Program-made: the position numbers and the translations under genes
Assembly: GCA_018434685.1 (NCBI GenBank)
Contig: JAHDOV010000003.1
Span: 340,302 to 404,301 of the forward strand
Direction: 5' to 3'
Length of the DNA: 64,000 nt
Origin: Deltaproteobacteria bacterium
GTDB taxonomy: Bacteria; Desulfobacterota; Desulfomonilia; UBA1062
Notes under the pieces: generated by a model
Told to the model about the DNA's origin: nothing
Databases searched by the model: none
The model's input: only the letters and a program-made list of their open reading frames with translations
Shown here: positions 11,634 through 20,922 of the stretch, in pieces
Numbering within the stretch: the stretch's first letter is position 1
Layout: each line of letters begins with the position of its first letter

Positions 11634-13111
11634 ACTACTTCTCCTTTCAAGGCGCGTATAATCCCTTCATCCGTGTACTCCTGTGCCACGAGGTGCGGGA
11701 GGAGACCGCGGCTCTCCATGGCCTGTGCCGTGACCGGACCGATGGCAATGAGCTGCTTTCCGGCCAGCACGGACAGGTCCCCATCGAGCAGCCTGACTGC
11801 ATTGCCGAAGCCCGAGGGGCTCGTGAAGACAACGCTGCAGGCATCACCGAGGGCCTGGGAAAAGTCTGCAGGTGTTGCCTCTCGTGGCAGGATGGTCTCG
11901 TACACGAAGATCTCGTCCACTGCTGCGCCCCGCTCGAGCAGGGCGTCCCTGAGGTAGGACCGTGCCCCCTTTGCCCGGGGCAGGCACACCCTCCTGCCGG
12001 CAAGGTCCCGGTCGCTCAGCAGTTCCATGATGCCTTCGGCCCGGAATTCCTCTGCCACGGCATCGGCAATGAGGCCATAACCCAGGAGGGCATCGCGCGT
12101 CTTGGGGCCGATACACACGAGTTGCTTGCCGGAAAGTGCCCGGGCATCCATGCCGGAGGAGAACATCCTGTCGAGAAAGAGCGGCACCGCGTTCTGGGAG
12201 GTGAAGATGAACAGGTCGTAGGAGGCCAGGTCCGGGAGCGCGAATTCCAGGGGGGCGATCTCCACCAGCGGGTAGACGATGCAGCGTGCTCCCTGGGAGG
12301 CAAAGAGCGATGCTGTCTTCATCGCCAGGTGGGCCGGCCTCGTAATGAGGACACTCTTGCCGGAAAGGGGCAGTGCCTCCCTCGTGTAGAGCGTGCTGCT
12401 CAGGGTCGCCACCTTGCCCACCACCATGATGCATGGTGATGAGATCTTATGCTCAATGGCATCGTCCCCGACCCGCTCGAGCACGGAGACCACGTGGCGC
12501 TGGCTAAAGGTGGTGGCATCCTTTACCAGTGCACAGGCTGTATCGCCCGGCATGCCCTCTGCCATGAGTTTTTCCGCTATGGAGGCGATCCTCCTGGCAC
12601 CCATGAGGAAGACGATGGTGCCGGAGTCGGCAGCGAGGTTGGCCCAGTCGAGGAAGCCCGACTCCTTTGCGGGGTCCTCGTGGGCGGTGACGAATTTCAC
12701 GGATGCGGCATATCCCCGGTGCGTGGGAGGGATGCCCGCACTTATGGGACCGGCGACGGCAGAGCTGATGCCGGGTATGATCTCGAAGGGGATCTGATGT
12801 TCATGGAGGTAGAGGGCCTCTTCACCGCCTCTGCCGAATATGCACGGGTCTCCTCCCTTGAGTCGGGCGACGGTGTGGCCTTCTTGAGCGAGGCTCACGA
12901 GCAGCTCGTTTATCTCCGGCTGCTTCATGTATTTCCTCCCGCCCCTCTTGCCCACGTAGATCTTTGTCGCACCGGGGCGTGCCGTAAGGAGGATCTCCGT
13001 GGGGATGAGATCGTCATAGACTACGACATCACACGCTGCAATGAGGCGGCTCGCCTTGAGCGTGATCAGTTCGGGGTCTCCGGGGCCTGCCCCGATGAGG
13101 TAGACCTTCAT
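11630..13111 (-). CDS. cobA-hemD: Fused uroporphyrinogen-III C-methyltransferase / uroporphyrinogen-III synthase
   Basis: 493-residue fusion. Residues about 1-245 are the SAM-dependent methyltransferase that makes precorrin-2 (VYLIGAGPGDPELITLKA at the start, VVYDDLIPTEIL, then the GGDPCIFGRGGEE loop). Residues about 250-493 form uroporphyrinogen-III synthase (SVLITRPAHLAMKTASLF ... FTSQNAVPLFL ... VVFTSPSGFGNAV ... AIGPVTAQAME). It therefore closes hydroxymethylbilane to uroporphyrinogen III and methylates it toward siroheme. This fusion is common in Desulfobacterota and Clostridia. The ATG overlaps the hemC stop by four bases and the stop overlaps the ahbC start, giving tight coupling. Confidence 0.95.
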   Translation of the reverse strand: MKVYLIGAGPGDPELITLKASRLIAACDVVVYDDLIPTEILLTARPGATKIYVGKRGGRKYMKQPEINELLVSLAQEGHTVARLKGGDPCIFGRGGEEALYLHEHQIPFEIIPGISSAVAGPISAGIPPTHRGYAASVKFVTAHEDPAKESGFLDWANLAADSGTIVFLMGARRIASIAEKLMAEGMPGDTACALVKDATTFSQRHVVSVLERVGDDAIEHKISSPCIMVVGKVATLSSTLYTREALPLSGKSVLITRPAHLAMKTASLFASQGARCIVYPLVEIAPLEFALPDLASYDLFIFTSQNAVPLFLDRMFSSGMDARALSGKQLVCIGPKTRDALLGYGLIADAVAEEFRAEGIMELLSDRDLAGRRVCLPRAKGARSYLRDALLERGAAVDEIFVYETILPREATPADFSQALGDACSVVFTSPSGFGNAVRLLDGDLSVLAGKQLIAIGPVTAQAMESRGLLPHLVAQEYTDEGIIRALKGEVV

Positions 13112-13998
13112 GGTGCCGTCTCCGGGTGGACGCGCTCCATCAGGGCGCGGGCGAGCCGGTCGCCCACCGACGGGGAGGTACCCTTCATGCTCATCCTTTC
13201 CATCCTCGTTTCATCCATTGTACCCAGCATACCGAGTATTAATATACCATCTTCTCCCACGGTTGCATATGCCCCTGCAGGCAGGTTGCAGTCCTGGCCC
13301 AGGGCTGCGAGAAATGTCCGCTCAGCCTCTGCGCAGATGCGGGTCTCGCCGTGGTCGAGGACCCTGAGAAGGGCATTGACCGCGTCGTTGTCGATCCTGC
13401 TCTGAACCGCTATGATGCCCTGGCCGGGTGAAGGGATCACTGAGGAGATATCCACCGGAATGCCCGGCGGCATGTCGAGCCGGATCACCCCGGCTGCTGC
13501 AAGGAGAACCGCATCCACCGTGTCTCCCACTTTTTTCAGCCGGGTGGGGACGTTTCCCCTGATCTCCATGATCTTCAGGTCCGGCCTCAGGAACCGCACC
13601 TGGCACCTGCGCCGCATGCTCGAAGTTCCGAGCGATGACCCCTCGGGCAGGGTATCGAGGGTGTGATTCCCTTGGGAAAAGATCATGTCCTGCGGGTTCT
13701 CCCTCTTGAGGTATGCGCCGATGGTGAGACCTTCTGGCAACACGGCCTGCATGTCCTTGAGGCTGTGCACCGCAAGGTCGATGGTGCCGGAGAGGAGCTC
13801 GCGTTCGATATCCTTGACGAAGACCCCCTTGCCGCCGATGGCGTCGAGAGGGGCATCGGAGAGGATGTCCCCCTGCGTCCTCACGACGCATATCTCCGGG
13901 AGGATATCCGGATGCACCCGCCTCAGGGCAGCACACACCATTTCCGTCTGCACCAGGGCGAGCCTGCTACCTCTTGTGCCGATCCTGATAGTCTTCAT
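13108..13998 (-). CDS. hemC: Hydroxymethylbilane synthase (porphobilinogen deaminase)
   Basis: 296-residue HemC, which joins four porphobilinogens into hydroxymethylbilane. The start MKTIRIGTRGSRLALVQTE is diagnostic. A Met ten codons upstream is in frame but lies outside the family homology. Visible landmarks are VHSLKDMQ (substrate-binding Lys-Asp), GTSSMRRRCQ and the dipyrromethane-cofactor region GQDCNLPAGAYA with its Cys. The gene overlaps hemA by 32 bases at its 5' end and cobA-hemD by four at its 3' end. Confidence 0.95.
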   Translation of the reverse strand: MKTIRIGTRGSRLALVQTEMVCAALRRVHPDILPEICVVRTQGDILSDAPLDAIGGKGVFVKDIERELLSGTIDLAVHSLKDMQAVLPEGLTIGAYLKRENPQDMIFSQGNHTLDTLPEGSSLGTSSMRRRCQVRFLRPDLKIMEIRGNVPTRLKKVGDTVDAVLLAAAGVIRLDMPPGIPVDISSVIPSPGQGIIAVQSRIDNDAVNALLRVLDHGETRICAEAERTFLAALGQDCNLPAGAYATVGEDGILILGMLGTMDETRMERMSMKGTSPSVGDRLARALMERVHPETAP

Positions 13999-15202
13999 CG
14001 AGTTGGAATATCCTCCGCGTATTTTCAATGTGATCGATCCCGGGGTGGGCCTTCAGGAAGCTCACCGGCCTGTGGATAAACCGCTTCAGCGACGTTCGCA
14101 ATACCTTTTCTACAACGGCCCTTTCCTGTTCATCAAGTGTTAATTCCTCGAGCTGCTCCTCCAGATATCCCTCCAGCATGGTGAAGAGGTCCCTGATGGT
14201 GGATTGGGCATCCAGTGCGCCGATCCACTGCTCGAAACGGTCTACCTCGTAATCGATGATATCGAGGGCCTTGCGGGCCTGTTCCTCCCGGTGGGAGAAG
14301 TTCCGGTCCACGATTGTGGTGAGCGAATCTATGTCGTAGAGGTAGCAGTTGTAGCACCTGCCCACATCAGGGGCCACGTCCCTGGGCACCGCGATGTCGA
14401 TGATGAACAGGGGGCTGTTGCGCCTGCGTTTCATGACGGACTCGATCATGTCCCGGGTGATGATGGGCTGTGGAGAGCCGGTAGAAGAGATGACGATATC
14501 ACTCTGGGCAAGCTCATCGTTGAGGCACTCGAAGGGTTTGGCTGTGCCTCCCAGCTCCTCTGCCAGATCGCAGGCAACCCGGTGGGTGCGGTTGATGATA
14601 TTCAACCTTTTTACGCCGCGGGTTTTCAGCCTCTTGGCAGCGATGCTTGCCATGTCCCCGGCCCCGATGATGAGGGCCGTGCTGGAATTCATATCCCCGA
14701 AGATACGGCTGGCGAGCTCCACGGCCTCGGAGGCAACGGACACGGGATATCTGCCGATATCCGTCTCGGTGCGGATGCGTTTTGCTACCCTGAATGACCG
14801 GTGCAGGGCCTTGTTGAGGAGGGTTCCCGGTGTATTGAGTGCAAGACAATCCCGGTAGGCCTCCTTCACCTGGCCGAGGATCTGCGGTTCGCCGATCACG
14901 AGGGAATCGAGCCCCGAGGCCACCATGAAGAGGTGCCGGACAGCGTCTCTGCCGGTGAGATGCTCCGAGACCTCCCGGAGGGTATCTCCTGCAATCCCGG
15001 ACAGAGACGAGAGATGCGCATACACAGCCGAGGCATCCAGCTCTCTCCAGTAGATCTCTGTGCGGTTGCAGGTGCTGAGGGTATATGCCTCGGAATCCTT
15101 GTGCAGAAGCGGCAGGATATCGCCTGGAGCTATGCGGATCTGCTCCCTGAGTTCCACCGGGGCGTGCTTGTGGTTTATGCTGATGCAGCCGACGAGGTTC
15201 AT
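13967..15202 (-). CDS. hemA: Glutamyl-tRNA reductase
   Basis: 411-residue HemA, the first committed enzyme of the C5 pathway (glutamyl-tRNA to glutamate-1-semialdehyde). The N-terminus is MNLVGCISINHKHAPVELRE; the catalytic Cys is in the motif TLSTCNRTEIY (near residue 50). Other landmarks are GLDSLVIGEPQILGQVK, the NADPH fold VIGAGDM-like IIGAGDMASIAAKRL, and IDIAVPRDVAPDV. The ATG overlaps the stop of the upstream CcsA/HemX-like gene (ATGA), which fixes the start well inside the longest frame. The next pathway enzymes, HemL and HemB, are not in the window. Confidence 0.96.
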   Translation of the reverse strand: MNLVGCISINHKHAPVELREQIRIAPGDILPLLHKDSEAYTLSTCNRTEIYWRELDASAVYAHLSSLSGIAGDTLREVSEHLTGRDAVRHLFMVASGLDSLVIGEPQILGQVKEAYRDCLALNTPGTLLNKALHRSFRVAKRIRTETDIGRYPVSVASEAVELASRIFGDMNSSTALIIGAGDMASIAAKRLKTRGVKRLNIINRTHRVACDLAEELGGTAKPFECLNDELAQSDIVISSTGSPQPIITRDMIESVMKRRRNSPLFIIDIAVPRDVAPDVGRCYNCYLYDIDSLTTIVDRNFSHREEQARKALDIIDYEVDRFEQWIGALDAQSTIRDLFTMLEGYLEEQLEELTLDEQERAVVEKVLRTSLKRFIHRPVSFLKAHPGIDHIENTRRIFQLDEDYQDRHKR

Positions 15203-16014
15203 AGGATAAGTCCTATTCCGTGGGCGTGGGGGAAGACGATGTTGATCCCGATGAACCCGATGATCATCACGAAAAACCCGATCACGGTGATGATGGCGGT
15301 GCGGCTCCCTTTCCAGCCGATGGCGAATCTCTGGTGGAGGGTGAATGCAAAGACGAACCACATGATGGCCCCGGCCGAGACCTTCGGTGCGATGCTCACG
15401 AACGAAAGGTCAAGGCTCGATGCCCACAGGCCGCCCAAGATCATGCCGACGGTAATGGAAACGAAACCGGCGCACAGGCATGCATAGAGGATCCTGTCGA
15501 GGATGGCCAGGGGCGGCAGGGAGGACGCGGCGGTGTGGATGGTGCCCTTCCTGATGATCCGCTCGTGGATGAGATAGATCACCGAGGTGATGAACGCCAC
15601 GACGAACAGGGCCTCTCCGCTGATCACGCTCAGGGTGTGGAGCGGATACCAGTAGCGGGACGATTCGATGAAGAGGCCGGGCTCATAGGTGAGCGACGGC
15701 GCGACGAGTCCGAGGCTAAAGGTGGCAACCGGCAGAAAGAAGGCAGCCATCACGGTCGTGGCTCTCCTCCATATGAGGGGGGTGAACACGACCGAGGCGA
15801 GGAAGATCATCATATTCAGTGCCTGCGGCGGCGATACTACGGGGAGGTGATACATCCTCATGCCCAGGGAGACGATAAAGCACAGGTGCACGATCACGCA
15901 GAGGATGAACAGCCCGCGCGCCACCCCCAGCAGTGTTTTGTTCGTGGTGAACAGGTAGAGGATGAACCCGATGCTTGCCAGGAAATAGAGGCTGAGGACC
16001 GCTAATACTGCCAT
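15199..16014 (-). CDS. CcsA/HemX-family integral membrane protein
   Basis: 271-residue protein with about eight hydrophobic spans, related to the cytochrome c assembly protein family (CcsA/CcmC/HemX). The final conserved region reads GGLWASSLDLSFVSIAPK then SAGAIMWFVFAFTLHQRF. The Trp-rich haem-handling motif of true CcsA (WGxxWxWD) is not present, so it resembles HemX, a membrane protein encoded beside hemA in other bacteria and reported to influence HemA levels. The start at 16014 lies inside the end of sirC, and the stop overlaps hemA. Function here is inferred from neighbours. Confidence 0.8.
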   Translation of the reverse strand: MAVLAVLSLYFLASIGFILYLFTTNKTLLGVARGLFILCVIVHLCFIVSLGMRMYHLPVVSPPQALNMMIFLASVVFTPLIWRRATTVMAAFFLPVATFSLGLVAPSLTYEPGLFIESSRYWYPLHTLSVISGEALFVVAFITSVIYLIHERIIRKGTIHTAASSLPPLAILDRILYACLCAGFVSITVGMILGGLWASSLDLSFVSIAPKVSAGAIMWFVFAFTLHQRFAIGWKGSRTAIITVIGFFVMIIGFIGINIVFPHAHGIGLIL

Positions 16015-16673
16015 GGGACGATTCCCTCCAGATCGATATGTTCTCCGAGGGCCTCCAGGAGGATATGTTCCGCCAGCTCCCGGTCCTGTGCCCGGATGGC
16101 ATCGATCAGTTCGGAGTTCACCAGCACATCGAAGACCCGTTTGTGGTCTTCGTGCCCCCCTTCCTGGGCGAGCACCAGGGGGCGGATCTTTCCCATGATG
16201 AGTGCCAGGGTCGCATACTCGTCTCCGATGAGAGATCCGATGACCATGCGCATTTTCCGGGAAAGGGCAGGCGAGACACCGCCGGTGGAGATGGCGATCT
16301 TGATGGGGCCCTTTTCCACCACCGAGGGGACGATGAAGCTGCACAGCTGCGGGATGTCCACCACGTTGCAGAATATGCCCAGGGAACGTGCATCCGAACT
16401 CACCAAGGCATTCGTTGCCATATCGTCGGTGGCGGCAATGACGAGCATGGCGCCTTCGAGATCTCCCTGCGTATAATCCCGCCGGACGATCTCGATACCG
16501 GTCAATGTCTCGATCTCTTCATTGACGTCAGGGGCAATGACCCGTACCTGCGCGCCTGCGGCGAGCAGGGGATCGATCTTCCTGCAGGCCACGAGGCCTC
16601 CGCCGACCACGACGATGACGCTGCCCCTGAGGTCGACAAAAAGAGGATAGTAGAAATTTTCTCGATATTCCAT
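16002..16673 (-). CDS. sirC: Precorrin-2 dehydrogenase (siroheme synthase N-terminal type)
   Basis: 223-residue SirC/CysG-N protein that oxidises precorrin-2 to sirohydrochlorin with NAD. Evident are the N-terminal FYYPLFVDLRGSVIVVVGGG nucleotide-binding turn, VACRKIDPLLAAGAQVRVIAP, and the central FCNVVDIPQLCSFIVPS followed by ISTGGVSPALSRKMR. No methyltransferase domain is attached; that step is supplied by cobA-hemD. The start at 16673 is chosen for the family N-terminus, although an in-frame Met at 16703 overlaps the upstream hydrolase stop and is possible. It leads directly into hemX/hemA (13-bp overlap). Confidence 0.92.
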   Translation of the reverse strand: MEYRENFYYPLFVDLRGSVIVVVGGGLVACRKIDPLLAAGAQVRVIAPDVNEEIETLTGIEIVRRDYTQGDLEGAMLVIAATDDMATNALVSSDARSLGIFCNVVDIPQLCSFIVPSVVEKGPIKIAISTGGVSPALSRKMRMVIGSLIGDEYATLALIMGKIRPLVLAQEGGHEDHKRVFDVLVNSELIDAIRAQDRELAEHILLEALGEHIDLEGIVPWQY

Positions 16674-16689
16674 ACGATCGCTCGCGTGA

Positions 16690-17448
16690 TTATCTGACTT
16701 CATTGAGCCAGTCCCTGATGATTCCGGCTGTCCTCGGGTCTTTCCTGAGCTGATGAGTGGCGCCCTCGAGCATGGTGATCTTCTTGGGGTGGCATGCCGA
16801 TTCGAACAGGAGCCGGGCATGCTCGGGCGGTACGGTCTCATCCTTCTCTCCATGCACTATTGACACTTTCCGGGGTGAAATGAAGGGGAGTGACCTCTCC
16901 GGGGAGAGGGCGAGGAAGTCTGCATACCACCCCTCCAGGTCCGGGGGAAAATCGGCGTCGCGGATGACGCCTATCTGTCTGAAATGTTCCCTGAGCAGGC
17001 GGGGATCATCCGGGAGTATGTCGGAGAAATTTTGCGGTGTTGCCATGAGCAGTACGCTCTGGATCTTCTTCTCGAATGAAGCGAACCTGGAGGCTATGGC
17101 CCCTCCGGCGGAAAAGGCGATACAGTGGATGGATGAGGGATCGATGCCCGGGGTATTGTAGACCTTGCGGAAAACCACGCTGAGATCATCGAACCAGCCC
17201 CGCATGTCGATATTGCCGCCAGATTCTCCGCATCCACGGAAGTTGAAGACCGTGCAGCAGAATCCCTCAGAGACAATCTCCTGAGCCAGGCTCACATATC
17301 CTGAATCGGACGGGTCCGGCCTGGAACCTGGTATGCCGTGGCACAGGATAACGACGGGACGCAATCCCCTGAAGTGATCATCAGGACAGTAGAGCGATGC
17401 CCTGATGTTTATCCCCCCCCGAGCCAACAGAAACTCGTTCGATTTCAT
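16690..17448 (-). CDS. Alpha/beta hydrolase (serine hydrolase)
   Basis: 252-residue alpha/beta hydrolase. The oxyanion strand is VVILCHGIPGSRPD, the nucleophile elbow is AFSAGGA (Ser, with Ala in place of the first Gly of GxSxG), the acid is in VHGEKDETVPPEH and the His in GATHQLRKD near the C-terminus. The lid between elbow and acid includes GWYADFLALSPERS, suggesting a short-acyl esterase or similar. The ATG at 17448 lies inside the 3' end of the upstream TPR gene (68-bp overlap). A TTG at 17478 with a better-spaced GGAGA site is an alternative. It precedes sirC, so it may share the haem operon transcript. Substrate unknown. Confidence 0.82.
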   Translation of the reverse strand: MKSNEFLLARGGINIRASLYCPDDHFRGLRPVVILCHGIPGSRPDPSDSGYVSLAQEIVSEGFCCTVFNFRGCGESGGNIDMRGWFDDLSVVFRKVYNTPGIDPSSIHCIAFSAGGAIASRFASFEKKIQSVLLMATPQNFSDILPDDPRLLREHFRQIGVIRDADFPPDLEGWYADFLALSPERSLPFISPRKVSIVHGEKDETVPPEHARLLFESACHPKKITMLEGATHQLRKDPRTAGIIRDWLNEVR

Positions 17449-18520
17449 CTTCAAGTAAGTTGTATCTCCTGTAAACAAAGGCCCACGATTTTAATTCCTG
17501 TTCATCCACTATAAGCTCATCGTTATCCGAGTATGTCCTCACCGGGATCCTGTTGCTCGATGCGAGCAGCCGGATGGTGTGTACAGGGATTCCAAGCAGC
17601 TTGGATGTCTTTTCAAAGGAGGTCTTCTTGTGTTTGCTGCCGCTTACCTTCTTGAAGACGAACGTCTGGAGGATCGCCTTCTGGGTGGCCTGGATATCAA
17701 GGGAAAAGGCCCGGTCAAGGGTATTGATGTACTGGTTCTCCATCTGATACCTGATGTTCGCGATTTCCACCAGCGCCCTGATATCATCGGGATATTCCGT
17801 GAGCATCAACTTGAGGATCTGCTGAGCGTCTTCCATGTTGTTCATGAAGAAATTGATTTCAGCCAGGTAGAGGTAGGTGTCCCTCTCCTTGTCGCCGAGA
17901 TCCATGGCCTTGGAAAACATTTCCAGGGCAAGATCCAGATGGCCGATTTCCCTGTGGCAGATACCGATGAGCTTGTAGATGAGCGGAGATGTGGAGCACA
18001 GGATGTTCGCCTTTTCCAGATCGTCTGCCGCGATGGTATAGTACCCCTGTTCCATCTTGTCTTTTGCCCGGGACATGAAGATTTTGAACCGCTCTTCGAA
18101 CTCCTTGTTGGAGAGGCTTTCCTGAGGGTCTTTGAAGTGAAAGCCCGACGTGCACAAGTCGAGATACTCCCGGTTCTCGTTCAGGGCATCGTCCGAGCCC
18201 AGCACATCGATGACCCGCTGGCAGAGATTCTTGATAGGCAGCATGGAATATATCTTGTTGGACACGTTGAGCCCGACCCCGCAGATATCGCTCTTGTCTA
18301 TCTCGGAGAGGTTCTTTGCCTCCCCGATCAATTCCTTGAAGAAGACATTGGTCATTTCTCTTGAATTGCTGATAGGGAGCACCATGGCTGATTTATATTG
18401 TCCCCCGGGACAGGTGTATTCATAGCTGAGCCACAACTCCCGGTATTCGGTGTCGATTCTCTCCACCTCTACGGAGAGCAGCTCGATTAATCCCTTGGGC
18501 TGTTCTAATTTTCCACGCAT
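17381..18520 (-). CDS. TPR protein with C-terminal excisionase/MerR-like helix-turn-helix
   Basis: 379-residue protein I cannot assign to a named family. Residues about 1-130 form a mixed domain of unknown type (MRGKLEQPKGLIELLSVEV). About 150-300 are TPR-like helical pairs (YYTIAADDLEKANILC, LIYKLIGICHREIGHLDLAL, TYLYLAEINFFMNNMEDAQ). Residues about 318-365 look like an excisionase/MerR-type DNA-binding helix-turn-helix (TSKLLGIPVHTIRLLASSN then a basic wing and VDEQELKSWAFVYRR). A cytoplasmic regulator that joins protein-protein repeats to DNA binding is a fair reading. The start is the only Met at the 5' end of coherent sequence. It is divergent from the selenoprotein candidate. Confidence 0.75.
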   Translation of the reverse strand: MRGKLEQPKGLIELLSVEVERIDTEYRELWLSYEYTCPGGQYKSAMVLPISNSREMTNVFFKELIGEAKNLSEIDKSDICGVGLNVSNKIYSMLPIKNLCQRVIDVLGSDDALNENREYLDLCTSGFHFKDPQESLSNKEFEERFKIFMSRAKDKMEQGYYTIAADDLEKANILCSTSPLIYKLIGICHREIGHLDLALEMFSKAMDLGDKERDTYLYLAEINFFMNNMEDAQQILKLMLTEYPDDIRALVEIANIRYQMENQYINTLDRAFSLDIQATQKAILQTFVFKKVSGSKHKKTSFEKTSKLLGIPVHTIRLLASSNRIPVRTYSDNDELIVDEQELKSWAFVYRRYNLLEDEIERVSVGSGGDKHQGIALLS

Positions 18521-18635: not shown

Positions 18636-19367
18636 ATGCTGAGAGTTCTCTCGATCGTGGGCATGTGTGCTGCTCTCTTGGTGTTTCTGACTGCCGGGGC
18701 CGTGTACGGTGCGCCGAAGGTGCGGATCGACAACTCCGGGTATGATGCAGGAGATATTCCCCAGGGAAAAGAGATATCCCACGAGTTCACCATAGAAAAT
18801 ATCGGAGACGCCCCGCTGAGCATACAGGTCAAGCCGTGTTGAGGAGTCAGGATTACTGCCCCGGGAGGGCAGAATCTGGAATCACAGGATCAGACCATTG
18901 CTCCGGGACAGAACCTGAAGCTCCTCGTGAGCATGTCGACCCAGGGATATTCCAAGACCCTGAACAAGAAGATCAAGATACAGACCAACGATCCGGACAC
19001 GGGATTGGTGACGCTTACCATGAGTGCACAGATTCTCGAACTGCTGAGCGTCAGTCCGCGTATGGTGGACTTCGGCAAGGTGCTCAAGGGTTCGGTCCAT
19101 ACCCGCGAACTGACGATCGCCAATACCGGCAGAGAAGCCATCGCCATAACCGGCGTCACGGCCAAACCGGATACCCTGATCGCGATCGCTCCCGCCGGGC
19201 CCTTCACCCTGGGGCCGGGGGAGGAGCAACGATTGGCGCTCACGCTCACCACCGGCTCTTCAAAGGGTCATACCGGCGGTTATGTGAGCATCGAGACCAC
19301 CATGGAGTATCTCCAGAAGAAGATCGTTCGAGTTCGGGCCCAGGTTGTTGAAAAGAACACACCATAG
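18636..19367 (+). CDS. Exported DUF1573-like protein, candidate selenoprotein (UGA at codon 69)
   Basis: One continuous frame of 243 codons if the TGA at 18840-18842 is read as selenocysteine. Residues 1-26 are a signal peptide (LLVFLTAGAVYGA). Residues 30-80 match the DUF1573 pattern (DAGDIPQGKEISHEFTIENI, then GDAPLSI and a Cys motif). In the family a CGC-type motif follows this strand; here it reads KPC-UGA-GVRIT, giving a vicinal Cys68-Sec69. A second beta domain of the same kind follows (about 145-240, MVDFGKVLKGSVHTRELTIA). There is no frame shift or other stop, and a SECIS-like hairpin starts nine bases after the UGA. GGAGGTGAGG precedes the ATG. Otherwise this is a nonsense-split gene; a 68-residue product would be a bare fragment. 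sel genes are not in the window. Confidence 0.8.
18851..18876 (+). promoter_or_regulatory. Bacterial SECIS-like stem-loop
   Basis: Arms GATT-A-CTGCCC (18851-18861) and GGGCAGAATC (18867-18876) pair over 10 bp with a single bulged A and enclose the loop CGGGA (18862-18866). The upper 6-5-6 unit is 17 nt, the size of the minimal fdhF element. Nineteen bases separate the UGA from the apical loop, inside the 16-37 window described for bacterial SECIS elements, and G occupies the second loop position. It lies within the coding sequence, as in other bacteria. Confidence 0.72.
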
Positions 19368-19395: not shown

Positions 19396-20922
19396 ATGAA
19401 AATACGGACGAAGAATATCGCCACAGTATCGGGACTCACCGGCATCAGCCGTATCCTGGGATTTGTCCGTGACATGGTGCTTGCCTGGCTTCTGGGGGCC
19501 GGCTACCTGGCCGATGCCTTTATTGTCGCCTTCAGGATTCCGAACCTGCTGCGCAGGTTCATGGCGGAAGGCGCTGTGAGCGTTGCCTTTGTACCGGTTT
19601 TTTCCGAGGCACGGGAACGGGACGGTCTCGAGAAGGCCTTCGACCTGGCCCGTGGCGTATTCACGCTCATGTTCTTCTCCCTGGCCGCTGTGGTGATAAT
19701 CGGAGAAATCGTAGCCCCGGCTCTGGTTGCGGCAATTGCGCCCGGCTTTATCCATGACGAGGCCTTTGAGACCGCGGTACGGCTTACCCGGATCATGTTC
19801 CCGTACATACTGCTGATCGGTATCGTGGCACTCTTCATGGGAATCCTGAACTCCATGGGGCACTTTTCTGCGCCTGCAGGCGCCCCCATCCTCCTCAACG
19901 TATTCATGATCGGCGTGCCCGTGGGGTTTTATGTGCTGATCCCGGTATTTTCTTCGCCGGCCGATGCCTTTGCCTGGGGGGTCATCCTCGGTGGGGTCGC
20001 CCAGGTCGTCCTCCACGTGATCCCCTTGAAGATGATGCATGTCCCGCTCGCCTTCACGCGCAACTTTTATCATCCCCGGCTCAGACAGGTCGCCTCTCTC
20101 ATGGGGGTTGCGGCCATCGGTGCTTCCGTATACCAGATCAATGTATTTGTCGGGACCCTGCTGGCGTCACTGCTCCAGACCGGGAGTGTTTCCTACCTCT
20201 ACTATGCCAACAGGATCACCGAGCTGCCGCTGGGGTTGTTTGCCTTTGCCGTGGGCAACGTGATGCTCCCTGCCATGAGCACCGCCCATGCCAGGGCGGA
20301 CACTGAGGGGCTGACCAGACTCATGGGCGAATCGGTTGCAGCCGTACTGGTATTCACCATACCGGCCACCGTCGGTATCATGGTCCTTGCGGAGCCCATC
20401 TTCGGCATCCTCTTCATGCGCGGGGCCTTTACCCTGCAGGACAGCCTCTCCTGTGCCTATGCGCTCAGGATGTACGCGCTGGGCCTGTGCGCGGTGGGTG
20501 TCTCCAGGATTCTCACCCAGACGCTCTACGCCATGCAGCAGGCCCGTTCGGTGGTGAAGACGGCGTGGCTGACGCTGGGGATAAATGTGCTGTTCTGTCT
20601 CGGTCTCATGCCGTTCATGAACCATGCAGGGATCGCCCTGGCAAGCAGTGTCTCCGTGTGCCTGCAGGTGGTTATCCTGTATCGTATCCTGGCAAAGAAA
20701 GGGGTGCGCCTCGCCGGGAGCCCCTTCATGCAGTATGCCAGGATGCTCATCGCTGCTGCGGCCATGGGTGCCTGTCTCGTGCCGTTCCTCTCCATGGGAT
20801 TCTGGGAGAACGGGTTTTCCCTCGGGAGTCTGACAGTACTCTTCGTCAGTATTATCGCCGGTGCTGTCGTGTATTTCGGTCTCCTGTGGCTCCTGGGATT
20901 CAGGCAGGTGTTCAGACGGTGA
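19396..20922 (+). CDS. murJ: Lipid II flippase MurJ (MviN family)
   Basis: 508-residue polytopic membrane protein with about 14 spans. It carries the MurJ N-terminal signature ISRILGFVRDMVLAWLLGAG followed by ADAFIVAFRIPNLLRRFMAE, including the conserved Arg residues, and the repeat of the MATE-like fold around QTGSVSYLYYANRITELPLG. MurJ moves lipid-linked peptidoglycan precursors across the inner membrane. It lies 28 bp behind the DUF1573-like gene and may be cotranscribed with it. Confidence 0.94.
   Translation: MKIRTKNIATVSGLTGISRILGFVRDMVLAWLLGAGYLADAFIVAFRIPNLLRRFMAEGAVSVAFVPVFSEARERDGLEKAFDLARGVFTLMFFSLAAVVIIGEIVAPALVAAIAPGFIHDEAFETAVRLTRIMFPYILLIGIVALFMGILNSMGHFSAPAGAPILLNVFMIGVPVGFYVLIPVFSSPADAFAWGVILGGVAQVVLHVIPLKMMHVPLAFTRNFYHPRLRQVASLMGVAAIGASVYQINVFVGTLLASLLQTGSVSYLYYANRITELPLGLFAFAVGNVMLPAMSTAHARADTEGLTRLMGESVAAVLVFTIPATVGIMVLAEPIFGILFMRGAFTLQDSLSCAYALRMYALGLCAVGVSRILTQTLYAMQQARSVVKTAWLTLGINVLFCLGLMPFMNHAGIALASSVSVCLQVVILYRILAKKGVRLAGSPFMQYARMLIAAAAMGACLVPFLSMGFWENGFSLGSLTVLFVSIIAGAVVYFGLLWLLGFRQVFRR

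Follow-up and report, generated by a model that had tools for sequence, protein, structure and literature searches.

Predicted selenoproteins with the DUF1573 domain have been described under two names. OS_HP2 denotes a pfam07610 selenoprotein family with the motif UxC (PMC2398784), and the DUF1573 selenoprotein has been listed with the motif UGC (PMC9312934, PMC13188914). The latter two papers credit the family to Zhang and Gladyshev 2007. It is also represented by the NCBIfam model NF041425. Different Sec motifs on one architecture are treated as separate subfamilies, and the DUF1573 entry contains only the UGC motif (PMC13188914).

The gene considered here lies in a 64-kb window, i.e., the whole stretch of DNA that was analyzed, and carries the motif CUGV. 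The initial annotation proposed it as a new selenoprotein family. This proposal does not hold, since the DUF1573/OS_HP2 family already appears in the three papers cited above and has its own NCBIfam model. What the gene very probably represents is an undescribed subtype of the DUF1573/OS_HP2 selenoproteins, referred to below as the CUG subtype.

Gene Organization and Neighborhood

The reading frame of the CUG gene extends from the ATG at 18636 to the TAG at 19365-19367, and its sole in-frame TGA is located at 18840-18842. The sequence GGAGGTGAGG stands immediately 5' of the start codon. When the TGA is read as Sec, the Pfam match to DUF1573 covers residues 30-132 and runs uninterrupted across residue 69. 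The protein scores 71.6 bits with this model (PF07610), against a gathering cut-off of 26.1, and reaches an approximately equal score of 72.7 bits with the HYDIN-like Ig model PF22544. Cys68, the single Cys of the mature protein, adjoins residue 69. The initial annotation described a frame broken by the TGA alone, whose second half completes the protein; this description is borne out, as a single 243-aa DUF1573 protein with an N-terminal signal sequence is obtained, and the motif given at that time, KPC-UGA-GVRIT, is exact. The features of the locus are collected in Table 1.

Table 1. Features of the CUG locus (positions are those of the window; assignments involving Sec are predicted).
Feature	Position	Strand	Remarks
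DUF1573 selenoprotein gene, CUG subtype	18636..19367	+	243 aa including predicted Sec69, stop TAG
Signal sequence, approximately residues 1-26	18636..18713	+	model helix 2-24, then AGAVYGA followed by PKV; cleavage site by eye
First Ig-like domain (DUF1573), approximately residues 30-134	18723..19037	+	contains the Cys-Sec loop
Cys68 (TGT) and predicted Sec69 (TGA) codons	18837..18842	+	loop between strands 61-65 and 71-75
SECIS hairpin CUGCCC-CGGGA-GGGCAG	18856..18872	+	6-bp stem, 5-nt loop, G at loop position 2
Second Ig-like domain (ASH / choice-of-anchor D), approximately residues 137-238	19044..19349	+	without Cys or Sec
murJ (lipid II flippase)	19396..20922	+	28 nt downstream of the CUG gene; ends at an ordinary TGA stop
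TPR-repeat gene, divergent, upstream of the CUG gene	17384..18520	-	start by eye

Of the 22 genomes with a CUG gene, 20 have murJ directly downstream of it, and no murJ was seen beside UGC genes in the stretches examined. This gene order suggests that the CUG gene is co-transcribed with murJ, with no shared function implied; the neighboring position is no functional proof. Elsewhere in the window, on the minus strand at 13108-16853, haem/sirohaem biosynthesis genes were recognized by eye, namely hemC-like and hemA-like genes, a gene for a CcsA-like membrane protein, and a sirohaem synthase-like gene.

Conservation of the TGA and Distribution

Other genomes contain this frame as well, again interrupted by exactly one TGA, and their proteins are 34-58% identical over the full length. 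Relatives of the CUG protein were found in all 23 genomes of the same family that were searched, nearly all with one TGA. With the source genome included, the TGA of the clade is kept in 24 of 24 searched family genomes, of which 22 carry CUG and two carry TUG (G007 and G013). Across the clade, the motif is CUG[VA] or TUG. All 37 TGAs recovered from the CUG and UGC groups fall into one alignment column, and every aligned homologue without Sec has Cys in that column. Recurrence at such identity, combined with 37 TGAs in one column, indicates that the interrupted frame is not a product of chance. Values of dN/dS range from 0.06 to 0.22 before the TGA and from 0.15 to 0.26 after it, which points to purifying selection on both sides.

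Several genomes contain variant or additional copies. One genome (G003) has three CUG copies (L029, L048, L053), two of them in tandem, while the third runs off the contig end. Another (G008; L035, L049, L050) combines one CUG copy with two Cys copies whose motifs are widened to CESC and CGC. In the TUG form (L039:1486-2196 and L040:532-1257), Sec is retained, the neighboring Cys position is Thr, and a His stands two residues before Sec. The source genome additionally contains a classical UGC-type DUF1573 paralogue (L047:1909-2622, G000:C14), which scores 129.8 bits with NF041425, above the cut-off of that model.

A DNA pattern was searched for in 395 genomes sampled from the phylum; it matched 10 of 12 genomes of the same family, plus five others. 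The five matches outside the family were rejected as chance, their translations not being DUF1573. The best profile matches outside the family (18 loci read) carry CGC or UGC. As far as sampled, the CUG subtype is restricted to one bacterial family. The related records are deltaproteobacterial MAGs, some of which are labelled Syntrophaceae UBA1062 and UBA6087.

SECIS Hairpin

The hairpin listed in Table 1 occupies nucleotides 14-30 after the UGA, and the spacing from the UGA to the start of its loop is 19 nt. Across the alignment, 94.2% of cells are paired, and double changes occur at four of the six pairs. The covariation score was reached by none of 500 shuffles, and sliding the partner abolishes the covariation. 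Just after the codon, the mean hairpin energy is -11.3 kcal/mol in Sec genes versus -4.0 kcal/mol in Cys genes; elsewhere in Sec genes it is about -3 to -5 kcal/mol.

The four published rules for bacterial SECIS elements (PMC13188914) were applied strictly, without bulges. The source gene conforms to all four. The rules are passed by 20 of 23 CUG genes versus 236 of 7019 control codons (3.4%), by none of three CxC genes, and by one of six CGC genes. In this strict gapless form they are failed by three CUG genes, both TUG genes, and all ten UGC genes tested. Because the UGC genes fail despite carrying hairpins, the strict rules are an imperfect test. The Rfam model SECIS_1 gave no match here, but it gave none in any control genome either, so that its silence carries no information.

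Decoding of the UGA Codon

The source genome contains selA (526 bits), selB (345 bits), selD (383 bits), and a tRNA-Sec(UCA) gene, selC, with the anticodon TCA (71.8 bits). Its selD (L068, G000:C22:160214-161134) has one in-frame TGA of its own and is itself probably a selenoprotein; many SelD proteins are known as such. Elsewhere in the genome, TGA serves as an ordinary stop, as at the end of murJ, so there has been no wholesale reassignment of the code. The remaining readthrough candidates of the window were inspected by eye, and none resembles a second selenoprotein.

The initial annotation suggested that the UGA is decoded as Sec and named an alignment of homologues, a search for the sel genes, and the exclusion of a sequencing error as ways of checking it. 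The alignment shows the Cys-for-Sec replacement at the TGA column with conservation on both sides, all four of selA, selB, selC and selD were found, and a sequencing error is excluded, as the TGA is common to many genomes. Decoding as Sec is thus strongly supported by column conservation, Cys replacement, the sel genes, and the shared TGA. Judged from the sequence, the UGA at 18840-18842 is almost certainly read as selenocysteine. In such a process, SelB and Sec-tRNA(Sec) would insert Sec at this codon, directed by the hairpin at 18856-18872.

The opposite reading takes the TGA as a real stop, with the locus being either a pseudogene or a split gene, or else as a sequencing error. TGA does end other genes here, including murJ, and an internal GTG-started frame is present. 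However, TGAs in the same column of many genomes, a hairpin that covaries, a second half under purifying selection, and the complete sel machinery all argue against a stop, which is extremely improbable. All three versions of this reading were consequently rejected as very unlikely.

Position within the DUF1573/OS_HP2 Family

The CUG protein has Sec at the OS_HP2 alignment column. All 26 members of the broad alignment A1 match NF041425 (best E-value 2.3e-26). The CUG protein scores 76.2 bits with this model, below the curated cut-off of 100. No CUG-clade member of the 26-member alignment reaches that cut-off, where members below 100 bits were determined from listed bits and score-to-E pairs. 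Because the cut-off of the OS_HP2 model misses them, CUG genes are likely annotated as truncated in public genomes. The UGC (UxC) motif of OS_HP2 is absent from both the source gene and its clade.

In a quick tree with the motif columns left in, the CUG, TUG, and CxC genes form one clade, apart from the UGC and CGC genes (SH-aLRT 100). The CUG subtype has a vicinal Cys-Sec pair and has lost the classical second Cys at +2. The Cys copies nested in the clade carry CxC (CGC) or CxxC (CESC), never CC. The functionally uncharacterized DUF1573 selenoprotein family thereby gains a further Sec subtype and presents an active-site series of UGC, CUG, lone U, CxC, and CxxC. The nested CxC and CxxC copies, in place of CC, constitute a natural experiment on the role of the vicinal Cys-Sec pair.

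Structure and Proposed Function

The structure model of the CUG protein is confident, with a mean pLDDT of 88.6, and shows an all-beta protein once the signal helix is passed. Its closest fold matches are HYDIN, MSP/VAP, CEP192, and PapD-like domains, as well as 2qsv, a Porphyromonas gingivalis protein of unknown function. Most of the matches are domains with scaffold, chaperone, or adhesion roles, or accessory parts of enzymes, which counts against a redox role; that no enzyme as such was matched is not taken as evidence. The product is predicted to be periplasmic, with two Ig-like (ASH/PapD-like) domains and Cys68-Sec69 in a loop of the first. In the most likely reading, the pair would cycle between the selenolthiol and selenenylsulfide forms and act as a periplasmic thiol/selenol redox center, chemically comparable to the Cys-Sec pair at the C terminus of animal thioredoxin reductase. 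Taken as a whole, the explanation by an exported, Sec-decoded protein with a vicinal Cys-Sec redox center is slightly favored.

A redox role is suggested because the only mature Cys adjoins Sec, and because the nested Cys copies (CGC, CESC) keep a pair that is disulfide-capable or metal-binding. A vicinal disulfide is strained, and a Cys-Sec link forms more easily; the occurrence of CxC or CxxC instead of CC therefore fits a redox pair. The two TUG genomes, which keep Sec without the neighboring Cys, indicate that the Cys-Sec pair is not indispensable. The series UGC, CUG, CGC, CESC, and lone U suggests that one reactive chalcogen may be essential and that a second nearby thiol may be favored.

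As the leading alternative, the Cys-Sec loop could be a soft metal or metalloid ligand site (Hg, Cu, As) of a periplasmic metal-binding protein into which Sec is inserted. CU motifs occur in HgcA, SaoL, SaoC, SaoB, MbdU, and a CopZ-like protein, several of which are mercury- or metal-linked, the CGC and CESC copies have motifs of the metal-binding type, and the His of the TUG form could belong to such a site. However, metal-handling genes are absent among the six neighboring genes scanned, and the conserved neighbor of the CUG gene is murJ. A metal-site protein is regarded as unlikely, while the choice of redox chemistry for Cys68-Sec69 over metal binding or another role is, on the sequence evidence, evenly balanced.

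The fold matches to HYDIN, MSP, CEP192, and PapD, as scaffold and chaperone domains, and the conserved gene order with murJ would also suit a mainly structural or scaffolding envelope factor, involved for example in cell wall synthesis via murJ, in which Cys or Sec covalently links a partner. However, the Sec/Cys column is invariant in all aligned homologues, as would rather be expected of a reactive site, and the UGC paralogues have no murJ neighbor in the stretches examined. A mainly scaffolding role is quite improbable.

Returning to the redox reading, its most novel form, a thioredoxin-reductase-like Cys-Sec center in an exported Ig-like domain of an undescribed subfamily, possibly tied to cell wall building via murJ, is put forward only tentatively. 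If true, a fold that is not usually catalytic would here carry a selenol redox site.

Comparison with Known Systems

The closest described proteins are the OS_HP2 UGC selenoproteins, which share with the CUG protein the Pfam domain, the Sec column, and export. They differ in the partner Cys, which is located at +2 in UGC proteins and at -1 in CUG proteins, and the two groups form separate clades. Of the UGC members scored, most lie above the NF041425 cut-off, whereas the CUG clade stays below it. The Cys-type DUF1573 proteins (CGCT), found for example in a sister family of the same class, have the same domain with Cys at the Sec column. Unlike the CUG gene, they are without Sec, lack the SECIS hairpin in five of six cases tested, and have a second Cys at +2.

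The vicinal Cys-Sec pair is also present in the bacterial CU-motif selenoproteins SaoL, SaoC, SaoB, HgcA, MbdU, and KCU-star (PMC13188914), although these families differ from DUF1573 by the domain identifiers given in that paper.

Animal thioredoxin reductase ends in GCUG. It resembles the CUG protein in having a vicinal Cys-Sec followed by Gly and in the selenenylsulfide chemistry proposed for the latter. However, its fold is unrelated and its pair is carried by a mobile C-terminal tail, whereas that of the CUG protein lies in an internal loop, so that the likeness is an analogy only.
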